Positions 293 through 3,972 of a DNA stretch of 64,000 nt are shown piece after piece. Below the pieces are notes generated by a model. That model was not told where the DNA came from. It saw only the letters and a list, made by a program, of their open reading frames with translations, and searched no databases. The DNA comes from Polaromonas sp. YR568 (GTDB lineage: Bacteria; Pseudomonadota; Gammaproteobacteria; Burkholderiales; Burkholderiaceae_C), in contig CAMCUN010000002.1 in the NCBI GenBank assembly GCA_945878995.1, forward strand, positions 1 through 64,000, read 5' to 3'. Numbering within the stretch: the stretch's first letter is position 1; each line of letters begins with the position of its first letter. The position numbers and the translations under genes are program-made.

Positions 293-612
293 GGTTGTGA
301 TTTTCGGGCTCTAGCCAATGTTGGAAAAAAACCGATCAAATCGTCCACTCGTAAGTTGTTGATCTGCTTGACCCCTGGCGGAGGGCCTTGTGGACTTCGT
401 CTCGTTTCCGGGCGCGAGGGATGCAGAGAGAAATGGCCGGAAGAGAGAGAACCAGGCGCAGAACCGCCTTAGTGGTGCGGTGGGTGAAGTCCGCAAGTTT
501 CCGCATGAACCCGCAAAAACACGGGGCGACACGCGCGATCGCCCAAGAAAAAACCCCAACTCAGACGAGTTGGGGTTTTGGTATTGGTGGCAAGCAGGAA
601 TATGAAAACGCT
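293..612. repeat. Diverged direct repeat copy 1 (ssrA-distal): hairpin, conserved block, inverted repeat, terminator, degenerate tmRNA 3'-end-like tail
   Basis: Co-linear with 3294-3614 at an offset of 3001-3003. Shared blocks: ggttgtgattt, gccaat, tcgtccac(t/c)cgtaagt(t/c)gttgat, gaagtccgcaag, and the identical 36-mer aagaaaaaaccccaactcagacgagttggggttttg at 545-580. Then tggtgg...ggaatatgaaaacgc versus tmRNA tggtgg...ggatttgaacccgc. Confidence 0.8.
545..580. terminator. Second copy of the ssrA-type bidirectional terminator
   Basis: 36 nt identical to 3547-3582. Confidence 0.8.
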
Positions 613-696
613 TGCTAACTCATTGCCAGCATTGAGGTTTTTAGTAAACCGGGACTAACAAACGCCGATTGATGCGAGCCGATAACGGAGGAAAAC

Positions 697-1008
697 TCAA
701 ACGCTTCCTTCGGTCTCAACGACCAAGATGCGGGCTGCGCCCTGCGGGTGAGCCACATGCTCGCAACCTACCCCGGCGAAGAACACATCGCCAACACCAA
801 GCGCGACGACGTGCTCTTTGCCATCCACACGGTAGTGCATGTCCACCTTGCCATCGAGCACGGCGAAGACTTCCTCGCCATCGTTGACATGCCACTTGTA
901 CGGCTGGTCGGTCCAATGGACGCGGGTGGTAATGCCGTTCATGTTCGCGACATCCATCGCCCCCCACGCTCGGTCGGCGGTAAATTCTTTGCTGCGGATG
1001 ATCTTCAT
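697..1008 (-). CDS. Small cupin-domain protein (103 aa)
   Basis: MKIIRSKEFTADRAWGAMDVANMNG...YKWHVNDGEEVFAVLDGKVDMHYRVDGKEHVVALGVGDVFFAGVGCEHVAHP: cupin-like motif pattern. Confidence 0.8.
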   Translation of the reverse strand: MKIIRSKEFTADRAWGAMDVANMNGITTRVHWTDQPYKWHVNDGEEVFAVLDGKVDMHYRVDGKEHVVALGVGDVFFAGVGCEHVAHPQGAARILVVETEGSV

Positions 1009-1041
1009 GAATCGAGGATTGCAGGAGGCGCGCGAGTCCCC

Positions 1042-1395
1042 TCAGGCCGCAGCGCGGGCTCGGCGAGGACTGGACTTACTGGATGCGACCGGCTGCTGCA
1101 CGCCCAGGTGCTCAATCACCACCGGTGGACGGTTGGGAAACTGCGCCACCAGGTTGAGCTGGCCGCCCATGCTCTCCACGTAGTGCCGCAGTGTGGAGAG
1201 CAGCATATCGCTGCGCTTTTCGAGCCGGGAGATGGTGTCCTGACCGACCCCCAGAGTCGCAGCCAGCTGCTCCTGCGTTTGCTGAGCGGCTTGACGCAAG
1301 TCCTTCAGGGTCGCCAACTCCATCGCACGCGCATCAATGCGCTGGAGCCGATCCGGCGGCAGCGCCGCCATCATGTCATCGAGTTTTCTTGCCAT
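1042..1395 (-). CDS. XRE/HTH antitoxin, HigA-like
   Basis: MARKLDDMMAALPPDRLQRIDARAMELATLKDLRQAAQQTQEQLAATLGVGQDTISRLEKRSDMLLSTLRHYVESMGGQL: HTH of HigA type; overlaps the upstream toxin gene by about 20 nt. Confidence 0.8.
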   Translation of the reverse strand: MARKLDDMMAALPPDRLQRIDARAMELATLKDLRQAAQQTQEQLAATLGVGQDTISRLEKRSDMLLSTLRHYVESMGGQLNLVAQFPNRPPVVIEHLGVQQPVASSKSSPRRARAAA

Positions 1396-1807
1396 GATTG
1401 GAATCCTCACTGTCTTGGGTCAGCGATGCCAGATGGCCGTCATATCGATCATCAGCCATCGCAATTAATCGTTTGTAGAACCGCCGCTGGTCCGCCCCAC
1501 CCTTGTCGCCGCCCACCAAGAGGATGGCTTGACGCTTGGGATCGAAGGCAAAGGCCACGCGCCAGACCTCACCACTCCAGGCAAACCTGAGCTCTTTCAT
1601 GTTGGCGTGGCGCGAGGCCTTAAGCGTATCGACCGTGGGCCGCCCCAGGTTCGGGCCAAACTGCGCCAGCAACTTCGCGTGCGCCAACAACTCATCCTGC
1701 AGGTCCTCTGTCAAGGAGGCGAACTCGCCGTCGAAGTCATCGTGGAAAAGAACGGTCCAGTTCACAGGCGTGATTATGGATTCAATGCCATATGGTGTCA
1801 AGTCCAT
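1376..1807 (-). CDS. HigB/RelE-like (Gp49-like) toxin
   Basis: Internal start of ORF 1376..2224: MDLTPYGIESIITPVNWTVLFHDDFDGEF...KELRFAWSGEVWRVAFAFDPKRQAILLVGGDKGGADQRRFYKRLI; toxin-first order typical of higBA. Confidence 0.8.
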   Translation of the reverse strand: MDLTPYGIESIITPVNWTVLFHDDFDGEFASLTEDLQDELLAHAKLLAQFGPNLGRPTVDTLKASRHANMKELRFAWSGEVWRVAFAFDPKRQAILLVGGDKGGADQRRFYKRLIAMADDRYDGHLASLTQDSEDSNHGKKTR

Positions 1808-1849
1808 ACCGCACGGTGCGCGGGCGAGCGGCTCTGAGATCATCCGGAG

Positions 1850-3244
1850 ATGGCCGAGTCGCAGGTTCACGCATCCATACCCGAACGCAAGCGCTGCGCG
1901 GTGTACACACGTGTGTCGGTCGATGACGCTCGCCACGAGCCGTTCGGCTCCAACGATGCGCAATTCATGGCCTGCCATGAACTGATCGCCTCGCAGCAGG
2001 GGCTGGGCTGGCAGCCCAGCAGCAGGCTCTACGAAGACAGAGGCTACTCGGCAAGCCACTTGAGACGCCCCGGGATCCAAATGCTGCTTGACGATGTTCA
2101 GTCCGGCTTGGTCGACGTTGTGGTGGTGCATCGCCTCGATCGGCTGACCCGGCACGTTGGAGACATGCAAACCCTGATGTCGGTCTTTGAGCAGCACGGG
2201 GTGGCACTGGTCTGCGTGACGCAATCACTGGATACCTCGAGCTCACACGGCCGTCTGGCGCTGCACCTGTGGACTTCATTCGCCCAGTTCGAACGCGAGC
2301 TGATCGGGGAGCGAATCCGCGACAAGCGTGCCGCCGCCAAGCGCCGCGGCCTGTGGCACGGCAGCGCCGCACCCTTGGGCTATGTCCTCGTGCAGCAACG
2401 CTTGGTAATCGAACCCCAAGAGGCGTCGATCGTGCGAGACATGTTCACACGCTTCGCGGCGCAAAGCTCTGTCACAACGCTGCTGCAAGAGCTGGCCCTG
2501 GAAGGCATCACAACCAAGCGATGGAAGACCCTGGCAGGACAGCCCAAGGGCGGGCGGCCCTTTGACAAAAACGCGCTCTACAAGATGCTGAACAACCGCG
2601 TCTACCTAGGCGAGATGCATTACGAGGGCGACTGGCACGCGAGCGAACACGAGGCCATCGTGACGCCAGAACTGTGGGCTCAGGTCCACACCGTGATGCA
2701 ATCTCGCGCTCGGCGCACAGGTGTGAGCACCACCCCGACGGAAGAACAGCAGTTCTGGCTTAAGGGCCTGCTGGTGGGCAGCGATGGCCGGGCCATGACG
2801 CCTTCCCTCTCATCAAGCTACCGCGGTCGCCGCTACGCCTACTACGTGCCCCAACAAGACATCGCGGTGGGCGCAGGCGCCTCACGCCTGCCGCGACTGG
2901 CCGCAGGAAAGCTCCACGCATCGGTGTGGGCGCACCTTCGATCTTGCCTGCGTGATCCCGAGCCGTGGTTTGAGGCGCTGCCGCCAGCGCTGACTGAACA
3001 CCCCACCTTTGACCGCCAGTTAATGGCGCAACGGCTGCGAGCCTTTGAGGCCATGCTCGACCAAGTCTTCCCTGCGCATCAGACCCGCGTGTTTCGCCAA
3101 CTGATCGAGCAAGTCGTGGTGGGCAAGACCGATGTTGCCGTGCGCGTCAGCGCCAAGGGCATTTTTGATCTCATGCTTGAGCTTCTGGACGAGCGCTATC
3201 TGGCAGAGCTTGGCAAGGATCAAAGCGGCCCAGCCACCGAGTGA
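1850..3244 (+). CDS. Serine recombinase/resolvase family protein (464 aa)
   Basis: RCAVYTRVSVDDARHEPFGSNDAQFMACHELIASQQGLGWQPSSRLYEDRGYSASHLRRPGIQMLLDDVQSGLVDVVVVHRLDRLTR: resolvase catalytic domain; followed by recombinase-type C-terminal region (ALYKMLNNRVYLGEMHYEG). Confidence 0.93.
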   Translation: MAESQVHASIPERKRCAVYTRVSVDDARHEPFGSNDAQFMACHELIASQQGLGWQPSSRLYEDRGYSASHLRRPGIQMLLDDVQSGLVDVVVVHRLDRLTRHVGDMQTLMSVFEQHGVALVCVTQSLDTSSSHGRLALHLWTSFAQFERELIGERIRDKRAAAKRRGLWHGSAAPLGYVLVQQRLVIEPQEASIVRDMFTRFAAQSSVTTLLQELALEGITTKRWKTLAGQPKGGRPFDKNALYKMLNNRVYLGEMHYEGDWHASEHEAIVTPELWAQVHTVMQSRARRTGVSTTPTEEQQFWLKGLLVGSDGRAMTPSLSSSYRGRRYAYYVPQQDIAVGAGASRLPRLAAGKLHASVWAHLRSCLRDPEPWFEALPPALTEHPTFDRQLMAQRLRAFEAMLDQVFPAHQTRVFRQLIEQVVVGKTDVAVRVSAKGIFDLMLELLDERYLAELGKDQSGPATE

Positions 3245-3293
3245 CGCAGAGAGTTTTCATATTTTTTCTTCTCTCTGAGAGTGCGGTCCAGGC

Positions 3294-3335
3294 GGTTGTG
3301 ATTTCTGCGCTCCTGCCAATGCAGAAATCAAACCG
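3294..3335 (+). other. Strong hairpin in repeat copy 2
   Basis: gatttctgc (3300-3308) pairs perfectly with gcagaaatc (3321-3329); flanking gcggtt/aaccgc extends the stem. Confidence 0.65.
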
Positions 3336-3546
3336 CTCGATTCGTCCACCCGTAAGTCGTTGATTTCATTGGCCCCATTGCGCGGTCCTTGCGGACTTCG
3401 GCGTGTTGCCGGGGGGCAGCCCCACTGAGAGAAATCGGGCTATCTGAGAGAACCGGACGCGGAACCGGCCCGATGACCTTGAGGGCGAAGTCCGCAAGAT
3501 TCCGCATTAACACGCAACAAACACCGGGGAACACGCACGATCGGAC

Positions 3547-3582
3547 AAGAAAAAACCCCAACTCAGACGAGTTGGGGTTTTG
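3547..3582. terminator. Bidirectional rho-independent terminator between the recombinase (+) and ssrA (-)
   Basis: aaaaccccaactc-agac-gagttggggtttt perfect stem with A-tract and T-tract on opposite sides; an identical copy lies at 545-580. Confidence 0.85.
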
Positions 3583-3586
3583 AGTA

Positions 3587-3972
3587 TGGTGGAGCTGGCG
3601 GGATTTGAACCCGCGTCCGCAAGCCTTGTTCGGGCAGATCTACATGTTTAGCGGTCTGATTTGAGTCTCGCTCCCTGGACCGCGCAGTCGCACGCTGTCC
3701 AGGGCGCCAGTGCCCTTGAATCTCGTCCTGACCCAAGGCACCCGGGTCAGAACCAGCCGATGAAGATTATCTTTGCAGCCGGGAGCTTGGGCTTGCGCCT
3801 TCACCCCTTGCCCAGCCCATCAGCAGACTGTTGCAAAGCTCACAGGCAATTAAGCTGCGAGTGCGAAACGTTCGTCGTTTGCAGTTAGTTTGTTTTGGCA
3901 GGATTTACGAGCACACCAAGCTCGACATGCACCACACCGCGTCCGAACCCACGTCGAAACCAATGCAGCCCC
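3587..3972 (-). ncRNA. ssrA: Transfer-messenger RNA (tmRNA)
   Basis: Minus strand begins GGGGCTGCATTGGTTTCGACG and ends GCGGACGCGGGTTCAAATCCCGCCAGCTCCACCA. Tag reading frame GCAAACGACGAACGTTTCGCACTCGCAGCTTAA = ANDERFALAA* at 3850-3882. Confidence 0.96.

Follow-up and report, generated by a model that had tools for sequence, protein, structure and literature searches.

A candidate compact integrative element with a serine recombinase and a conserved non-coding module at the 3' end of ssrA in Polaromonas

Introduction

How did the transfer-messenger RNA (tmRNA) gene ssrA of Polaromonas sp. YR568 come to be followed by two related stretches of non-coding DNA, 3.0 kb apart, with a serine recombinase gene between them? 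We analyzed a 64,000-nucleotide stretch of this genome (GCA_945878995.1, contig CAMCUN010000002.1, positions 1 to 64,000; hereafter the window). Window coordinates are used throughout, and ssrA lies on the minus strand with its 3' end pointing to lower coordinates. We find that bases ~591-3592 very probably constitute a compact ~3.0-kb integrative element at the 3' end of ssrA (a probability of roughly 0.87). Integrases that use tmRNA genes, serine ones included, are already known. What is new is a compact unit of serine recombinase and HigBA that lacks the partner genes usual in its family, has a conserved outer end, and occurs at both ssrA and tRNA-Met, together with the finding that this integrase family is accompanied by a conserved non-coding arm of ~290 bp. 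The module itself is apparently undescribed: we found no published description in a literature search that left out most subscription papers.

Results

The main parts of the locus are as follows.
3972..3587, minus strand: ssrA (tmRNA), functional, the target gene (ARAGORN; Rfam RF00023, 182.7 bits)
3592..3587, minus strand: 3' CCACCA of ssrA, junction 1 (attL), predicted crossover region; same position in the 48 modules adjoining an ARAGORN-called tmRNA or tRNA 3' end
3586..3294, minus strand: proximal module (copy 2; arm belonging to the putative element itself), made up of a terminator and the conserved non-coding module of ~290 bp (hidden Markov model/covariance model, 253/209 bits); co-transfers with the recombinase
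1850..3244, plus strand: large serine recombinase of 464 aa, a predicted integrase that reads toward ssrA (PF00239 and PF07508; family location at tmRNA/tRNA 3' ends; fold matches to large serine recombinases)
591..606, minus strand: outer end of the element, predicted attP left half-site, TTCATATTCCTGCTTG directly before CCACCA (comparison with loci L171 and L185)
590..585, minus strand: CCACCA, junction 2 (attR), predicted crossover region; set against the other 39 junctions, mostly orphans, at which ARAGORN called no gene
584..293, minus strand: distal module (copy 1), read as an older module displaced from ssrA (259/213 bits; 76% identical to the proximal copy)

The two modules are homologous along their whole length of ~290 bp, not at the terminator alone. 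Gapped BLASTN aligns 293-590 with 3294-3592 at 76% identity over ~298 bp (295-301; E ~1e-51), far beyond chance. A repeat search pairs 293-466 with 3294-3467 (offset 3001, 71% ungapped), 482-519 with 3483-3520 (offset 3001, 87%), and 517-590 with 3519-3592 (offset 3002, 86%). The co-linear copies that an initial annotation of this DNA had placed at 293-612 and 3294-3614, with these offsets, are thus real, and it correctly described copy 2 as abutting a functional tmRNA gene. By eye, the terminator common to both copies is identical over 37 nt (CAAGAAAAAACCCCAACTCAGACGAGTTGGGGTTTTG), one more than was first counted. Copy 1 is preceded by a second CCACCA (590..585), 3.0 kb beyond that of ssrA. 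The contig begins at window base 1, so that only 292 bp are visible to the left of copy 1.

As initially annotated, only a serine recombinase, a HigBA-like pair, and a cupin gene lie between the modules. The 3-kb unit has no tyrosine integrase, nor the conjugation genes that would mark an integrative conjugative element. The recombinase has the expected order of a resolvase catalytic domain (PF00239, 122 bits) followed by a Recombinase domain (PF07508, 53 bits). In our family alignment (A3), Y-T-R-V-S23 and D97-R98-L99-x-R101 are invariant apart from the V, so that the catalytic serine and active-site arginines are present. A fold model of moderate quality (pLDDT 76, pTM 0.36) matches the Bxb1 and A118 integrases. 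The PF13408 zinc ribbon is matched in the family member L034 (31 bits) and not in the window protein; across the family, the usual zinc-ribbon cysteines are absent (A3 columns 303-350), while the domain pattern is otherwise recognizable. The window recombinase is thus predicted to catalyze attP × attB recombination.

Relatives of this enzyme are found beside tmRNA and tRNA genes. Our survey of 84,980 genomes yielded 80 named loci, 31 of which had a tRNA or tmRNA gene in range; in 29 of the 31, that gene lay downstream of the recombinase on the opposite strand. The targets among named loci were tmRNA in beta- and gammaproteobacteria and mostly tRNA-Ser in alphaproteobacteria. Within genomes of the order, relatives lay 0.7-19 kb from ssrA and were oriented toward it in twelve cases. 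Reading toward the target is not a universal rule, being false for a tRNA-Ala/Phe subgroup (L166, L167, L169, and L223). The window protein is 41-44% identical to the family core and forms a deep separate clade with that of L171. Many relatives occur in a cassette of DUF2924, recombinase, and small protein; no homologue of either partner was found among window open reading frames of at least 60 aa. In the literature searched, DUF2924 appeared in Wolbachia papers only. Alphaproteobacterial members at tRNA-Ser without a recognizable module (L196, L211, L215, L221, L225, L230, L233-L235, L240, L242, and L249) may use a different arm.

The module is common and sporadic. A profile built from eight copies matched 90 of 300 genomes of the order (about 30%) and 29 of 87 of the genus. 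Found in beta- and gammaproteobacteria, the module begins at the CCACCA with which tmRNA and tRNA genes end and includes their terminator. Using two profiles and ARAGORN, we located 48 modules placed precisely at the CCA terminus of a complete gene (35 tmRNA, 7 tRNA-Phe, 5 tRNA-Ala, and 1 tRNA-Met). A further 39 had no ARAGORN-called gene; some of these follow tmRNA or tRNA ends that were clearly missed, and the rest are orphans behind some other sequence whose last bases are CACCA. Orphans are frequently located between a few and tens of kilobases downstream of the gene, as expected of displaced copies. By its position, then, the module appears to mark integration junctions. We dropped a universal 5-bp shift of motif between attP and attB, because spacings at junctions without an ARAGORN-called gene were mixed: a GTTYG-like motif lay 29 nt from the CCA end in 10 of them, versus 24 in T-arms, and at 24 in 12 others, some of which are simply unannotated tmRNA or tRNA ends. 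The window has neither spacing.

In an alignment of 43 copies, the order of parts is CCACCA, a rho-independent terminator, direct TGCGGA boxes (often spaced about 10 bp), two CTCTC tracts, an inverted AGTCCGC box, and ATCAANNNNTTACGCG...GGACGAATCAA; similarity stops after GCATTGG. Exact WATCAANNNNTTR, which we take to be the consensus of integration host factor (IHF), is present in 35 of 50 modules versus 0.1 expected in shuffles. Since this motif occurs as two direct copies about 23 bp apart, binding by another sequence-specific protein is also possible. RNAalifold detected covariation in the terminator helix only, GCGGACT/AGTCCGC pairing being invariant or nearly so, and we therefore rejected the module as an RNA gene; its conservation looks like that of DNA sites.

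Neither window copy had a BLASTN match in plasmids or phages; with L174 as query, there was one partial plasmid match. As an independent test, a 26-nt module core searched against 2.9 million viral contigs hit nine, all with the full module and six with this recombinase family. Elsewhere, three module copies are stacked within 8 kb downstream of ssrA in L035 (2593-10945; genome G044, contig C35), with more on contigs C24 and C19. In L135 (6909-8478; G236, contig C106), a displaced module is immediately preceded by a P4-type tyrosine integrase, which suggests that an unrelated element inserted between ssrA and that module.

The strongest evidence comes from two metagenome-assembled genomes (MAGs) of the same genus, which carry the window-type recombinase and module together, at different genes. 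In G382, the recombinase is 97.6% identical (nucleotides, over 705 bp, the contig ending inside the gene), and its module (85.7% to the window) lies directly at the CCA of tRNA-Met; past CCACCA, there is T-arm-like similarity only. G384 has the unit at ssrA, with a recombinase end identical at 88 of 88 positions, a 95.7% identical spacer, and a 93.6% identical module, whereas its host genes are far more diverged from those of the window (ssrA 85.2%, gyrA 81.0%). This difference, together with the use of two target genes, argues for horizontal acquisition. The comparison shows module homology, the CCACCA junction, linkage of recombinase and module, the unit at two genes, and an element identity far above that of the host. 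The initial proposal of an integrative element that reached the 3' end of ssrA through insertion or accretion is supported. Recombinase and module are gained as a unit in related genomes, even at tRNA-Met, and neither of the observations named beforehand as refuting it was made, namely identity confined to the terminator or the same two repeats without recombinase-linked gain or loss.

The outer end is conserved in independent elements. L171, from an uncultured Burkholderiales MAG (CAITHK010000041.1), has the order ssrA, module, recombinase (59% aa identity), HigBA (72-79% aa), TTCATATTCCTGCTTG abutting CCACCA, and a second module. All 22 nt of its outer end, CCACCA included, are identical to window 606..585. 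In L185, from a Xanthomonas MAG, the recombinase is more distant (43%), HigBA is 75-76% identical, and the outer-end pattern TTCATATTCNNNNTTGCCACCA again precedes a module. Common to all three is TTCATATTC(N4)TTG followed by CCACCA. Thus, this sequence is best read as the element's own half-site and not, as first annotated, as a decayed tmRNA 3' end. The resemblance to such an end beyond copy 1 (TGGTGG followed by CAAGCAGGAATATGAAAACGC) is faint; the tmRNA-derived part is CCACCA only, and the remainder is conserved element sequence. Because outer junction and ssrA share CCACCA alone, the element brought no long ssrA 3' end, contrary to the initial inference that it came with an ssrA 3' end of its own; that it brought its own terminator and downstream module stands.

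Several observations concern these ends. In L185 (9114-11347), HigBA and outer end are 75-76% (aa) identical to the window versus 43% for the recombinase, which suggests that recombinase and toxin-antitoxin/outer-end part are exchanged as modules. L171 has a 228-bp stretch, 94% identical between 1-228 and 2914-3141, that lies beyond both modules and is much more alike than the modules themselves. An extra outer end in genome G171 (2 mismatches) was discarded as chance, being in unrelated protein-coding-like sequence with no module, serine recombinase, or HigBA nearby. The right flank of the island, sought through the rsuA contig of the genome (C68), was uninformative, as rsuA is not near ssrA in this lineage.

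The remaining features of the unit and modules are these.
3250..3270, plus strand: TTTTCATATT motif in the gap that separates the recombinase from the proximal module, in the opposite orientation to the outer end at 592-612; also in L171, G384, and G382
1376..1765, minus strand: HigB/Gp49-like toxin gene, start approximate (PF05973; 72-75% aa identity in L171 and L185)
1042..1410, minus strand: HigA-like helix-turn-helix antitoxin gene (PF13560/PF01381; 76-79% aa identity in L171 and L185)
697..1008, minus strand: small cupin gene, variable cargo (Cupin_2 match sub-threshold)
3353..3365, minus strand: IHF-consensus-like motif AATCAACGACTTA in the proximal module
352..364, minus strand: matching motif GATCAACAACTTA in the distal module, one deviation from consensus

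HigBA is predicted from sequence (toxin PF05973, 68 bits; tandem antitoxin HTH_31, 31 bits, and HTH_3, 25 bits) and probably stabilizes the element. The cupin gene was not found by tblastn in L171 or L185 and is read as cargo.

Discussion

We propose that a large serine recombinase of a widespread family inserts its element at the 3' CCA end of tmRNA and tRNA genes. The circular form would carry an attP made of the outer half-site TTCATATTCCTGCTTG, CCACCA, and its own terminator with the ~290-bp module, predicted as GCAAGCGTTTTCATATTCCTGCTTG-CCACCA-TACTCAAAACCCC. The predicted attB, GCGGGTTCAAATCCCGCCAGCT-CCACCA-ATACCAAAACCCC, would combine the ssrA end with the resident downstream module. Recombination between the two would join the element's terminator and module to ssrA (attL, 3587-3592), leaving the tmRNA intact and newly terminated, and would join the outer half-site to the displaced resident module (attR, 585-590), moved 3 kb from ssrA. 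That displaced module may then be the record of an earlier, related occupant, and excision would re-form attB as ssrA...AGCTCCACCA-ATACCAAAACCCC. That the recombinase catalyzes the insertion is an inference, as are the sequence of events, the precise position of the crossover, and mobility at the present day.

Some points weigh against this proposal. We saw no same-strain empty site and no circular junction. Of the modules with long flanking sequence, about one in two lacks a recombinase within ~18 kb. The contigs of G382 and G384 break inside the recombinase, so that outer ends and cargo fall outside the observed sequence, and G382 is a 66%-complete MAG. The absence of the family's usual DUF2924 and small-protein partners means that the window element may not be autonomous. 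Moreover, the two window modules are sisters in the module tree, each other's nearest relatives with a support of 100. This may reflect earlier and later occupants that were close kin, exchange of sequence between the copies, or origin of one copy by duplication.

Such sisterhood, like the identical 37-nt terminator, also fits local duplication or gene conversion. That the module downstream of ssrA was duplicated locally in tandem, and that recombinase, HigBA, and cupin came to lie between the copies later by an unrelated route, is nevertheless unlikely, given that recombinase and proximal module occur together at tRNA-Met in G382, that L171 and L185 have the same layout, and that recombinase and module are linked across many genomes. 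The tandem pairs of L171, G044, and G086 are not sisters, which favors repeated insertion as the general rule. It was initially argued that divergence of the copies speaks against a recent duplication; this is reasonable, but their sisterhood keeps it from being decisive.

Could the module instead be native DNA, either regulatory or an RNA gene, downstream of ssrA, into which a recombinase gene merely landed? Its presence in 90 of 300 genomes, adjoining ssrA in most cases, would suit such an origin. We nevertheless consider this highly improbable: the module is sporadic in the genus, also occurs at tRNA-Phe, -Ala, and -Met, is far more similar in G384 than are the host genes, and bears no sign of RNA structure beyond its terminator hairpin.

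Comparably implausible is a transposon-like unit bounded by inverted TTTTCATATT motifs and inserted between two pre-existing modules. These motifs do flank the recombinase-HigBA part in the window (592-612 and 3250-3270) and in L171 (453-475 and 3237-3262), and the proximal-end motif is conserved in G382, G384, and L171. The match is weak, however (21 nt at 81%, similar to chance pairs of the same repeat search), and the proximal module moves with the recombinase in G382 and G384. Least likely of all is insertion by a tyrosine integrase element with the serine recombinase as passenger: ssrA is a classic target of such enzymes, P4-type integrases are found close to modules in G236 and in the viral contigs L256 and L260, and the boxes and IHF-like motifs of the module are reminiscent of the attP arms of these enzymes, but the 3-kb unit contains no tyrosine integrase, the module is tracked by the serine recombinase and not by tyrosine integrases, and the target fragments that tyrosine-integrase elements displace usually exceed the 6 nt observed at this locus.

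Comparable systems are known at ssrA. AcaML1 is an inducible, 59-kb phage of Acidithiobacillus caldus with attB in ssrA and 10-bp repeats (PMC3826726). We find that its sequence (JX507079) starts at CCACCATTTA with a diverged module variant, terminator included, and ends in CCACCATTTA behind a T-arm-like half-site. Its recombinase is 58% identical to that of L034 and has neighbors annotated as hypothetical and "small subunit". Being an ssrA-integrated phage with a homologous recombinase, AcaML1 ties the family to integration at ssrA. The window element shares with it a homologous large serine recombinase, location at ssrA, a start at CCACCA plus module, and a short direct repeat. It differs in size, in carrying HigBA, in its outer half-site, and in lacking the flanking genes (short Gp4 and "small subunit"). 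More generally, the window has the homologous recombinase and ~290-bp CCACCA module of AcaML1-type DUF2924-recombinase-small-protein elements without their partner genes.

The ssrA islands of Dehalococcoides (DsiB) likewise use a serine recombinase integrase and accrete in tandem at ssrA, and islands without an integration module are treated as cis-mobilizable (McMurdie 2011, PMC3146451). Those islands insert in the T-loop with a 20-bp ssrA repeat and carry a six-gene integration module with DsiA, ParB, and Mom and a CcrB-like integrase of ~540 aa (PMC3146451). The window, in contrast, shares only CCACCA at its outer junction and carries serine recombinase, HigBA, and cupin in place of that module with its second, small serine recombinase. 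The recombinase of Wolbachia phage WO, an alphaproteobacterial prophage, is a homologue about 34% identical to the family enzyme; no module homologue was found in the phage collection searched. With A118/LI and Bxb1-type integrases, the window enzyme shares catalytic and recombinase domains and structural matches to integrase complexes. For those enzymes, att sites of 40-50 bp suffice without auxiliary DNA (PMC3783163), whereas the window site is accompanied by a ~290-bp conserved arm and the zinc ribbon lacks recognizable cysteines.

What the arm does is a more tentative matter. It is possible, if doubtful, that phased TGCGGA boxes, paired CTCTC tracts, and IHF-consensus-like sites form a complex accessory arm for the serine integrase, folded with IHF and DUF2924 or small proteins in the manner of a lambda-type attP, and letting one recombinase lineage use the CCA ends of several tRNA genes. 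If the module were indeed a required arm, it would be an exception to the rule that simple sites suffice for serine integrases and that host factors are dispensable.

Our findings provide a concrete predicted att pair for a little-studied serine integrase lineage that uses the CCA ends of tmRNA and tRNA genes, a universal site, and may interest genome engineering. The 3-kb unit of serine recombinase and HigBA is close to a minimal self-contained integrative element. The analysis also reveals a conserved non-coding module, previously left unexplained by annotation, beside such target genes in roughly 30% of the genomes sampled from the order.

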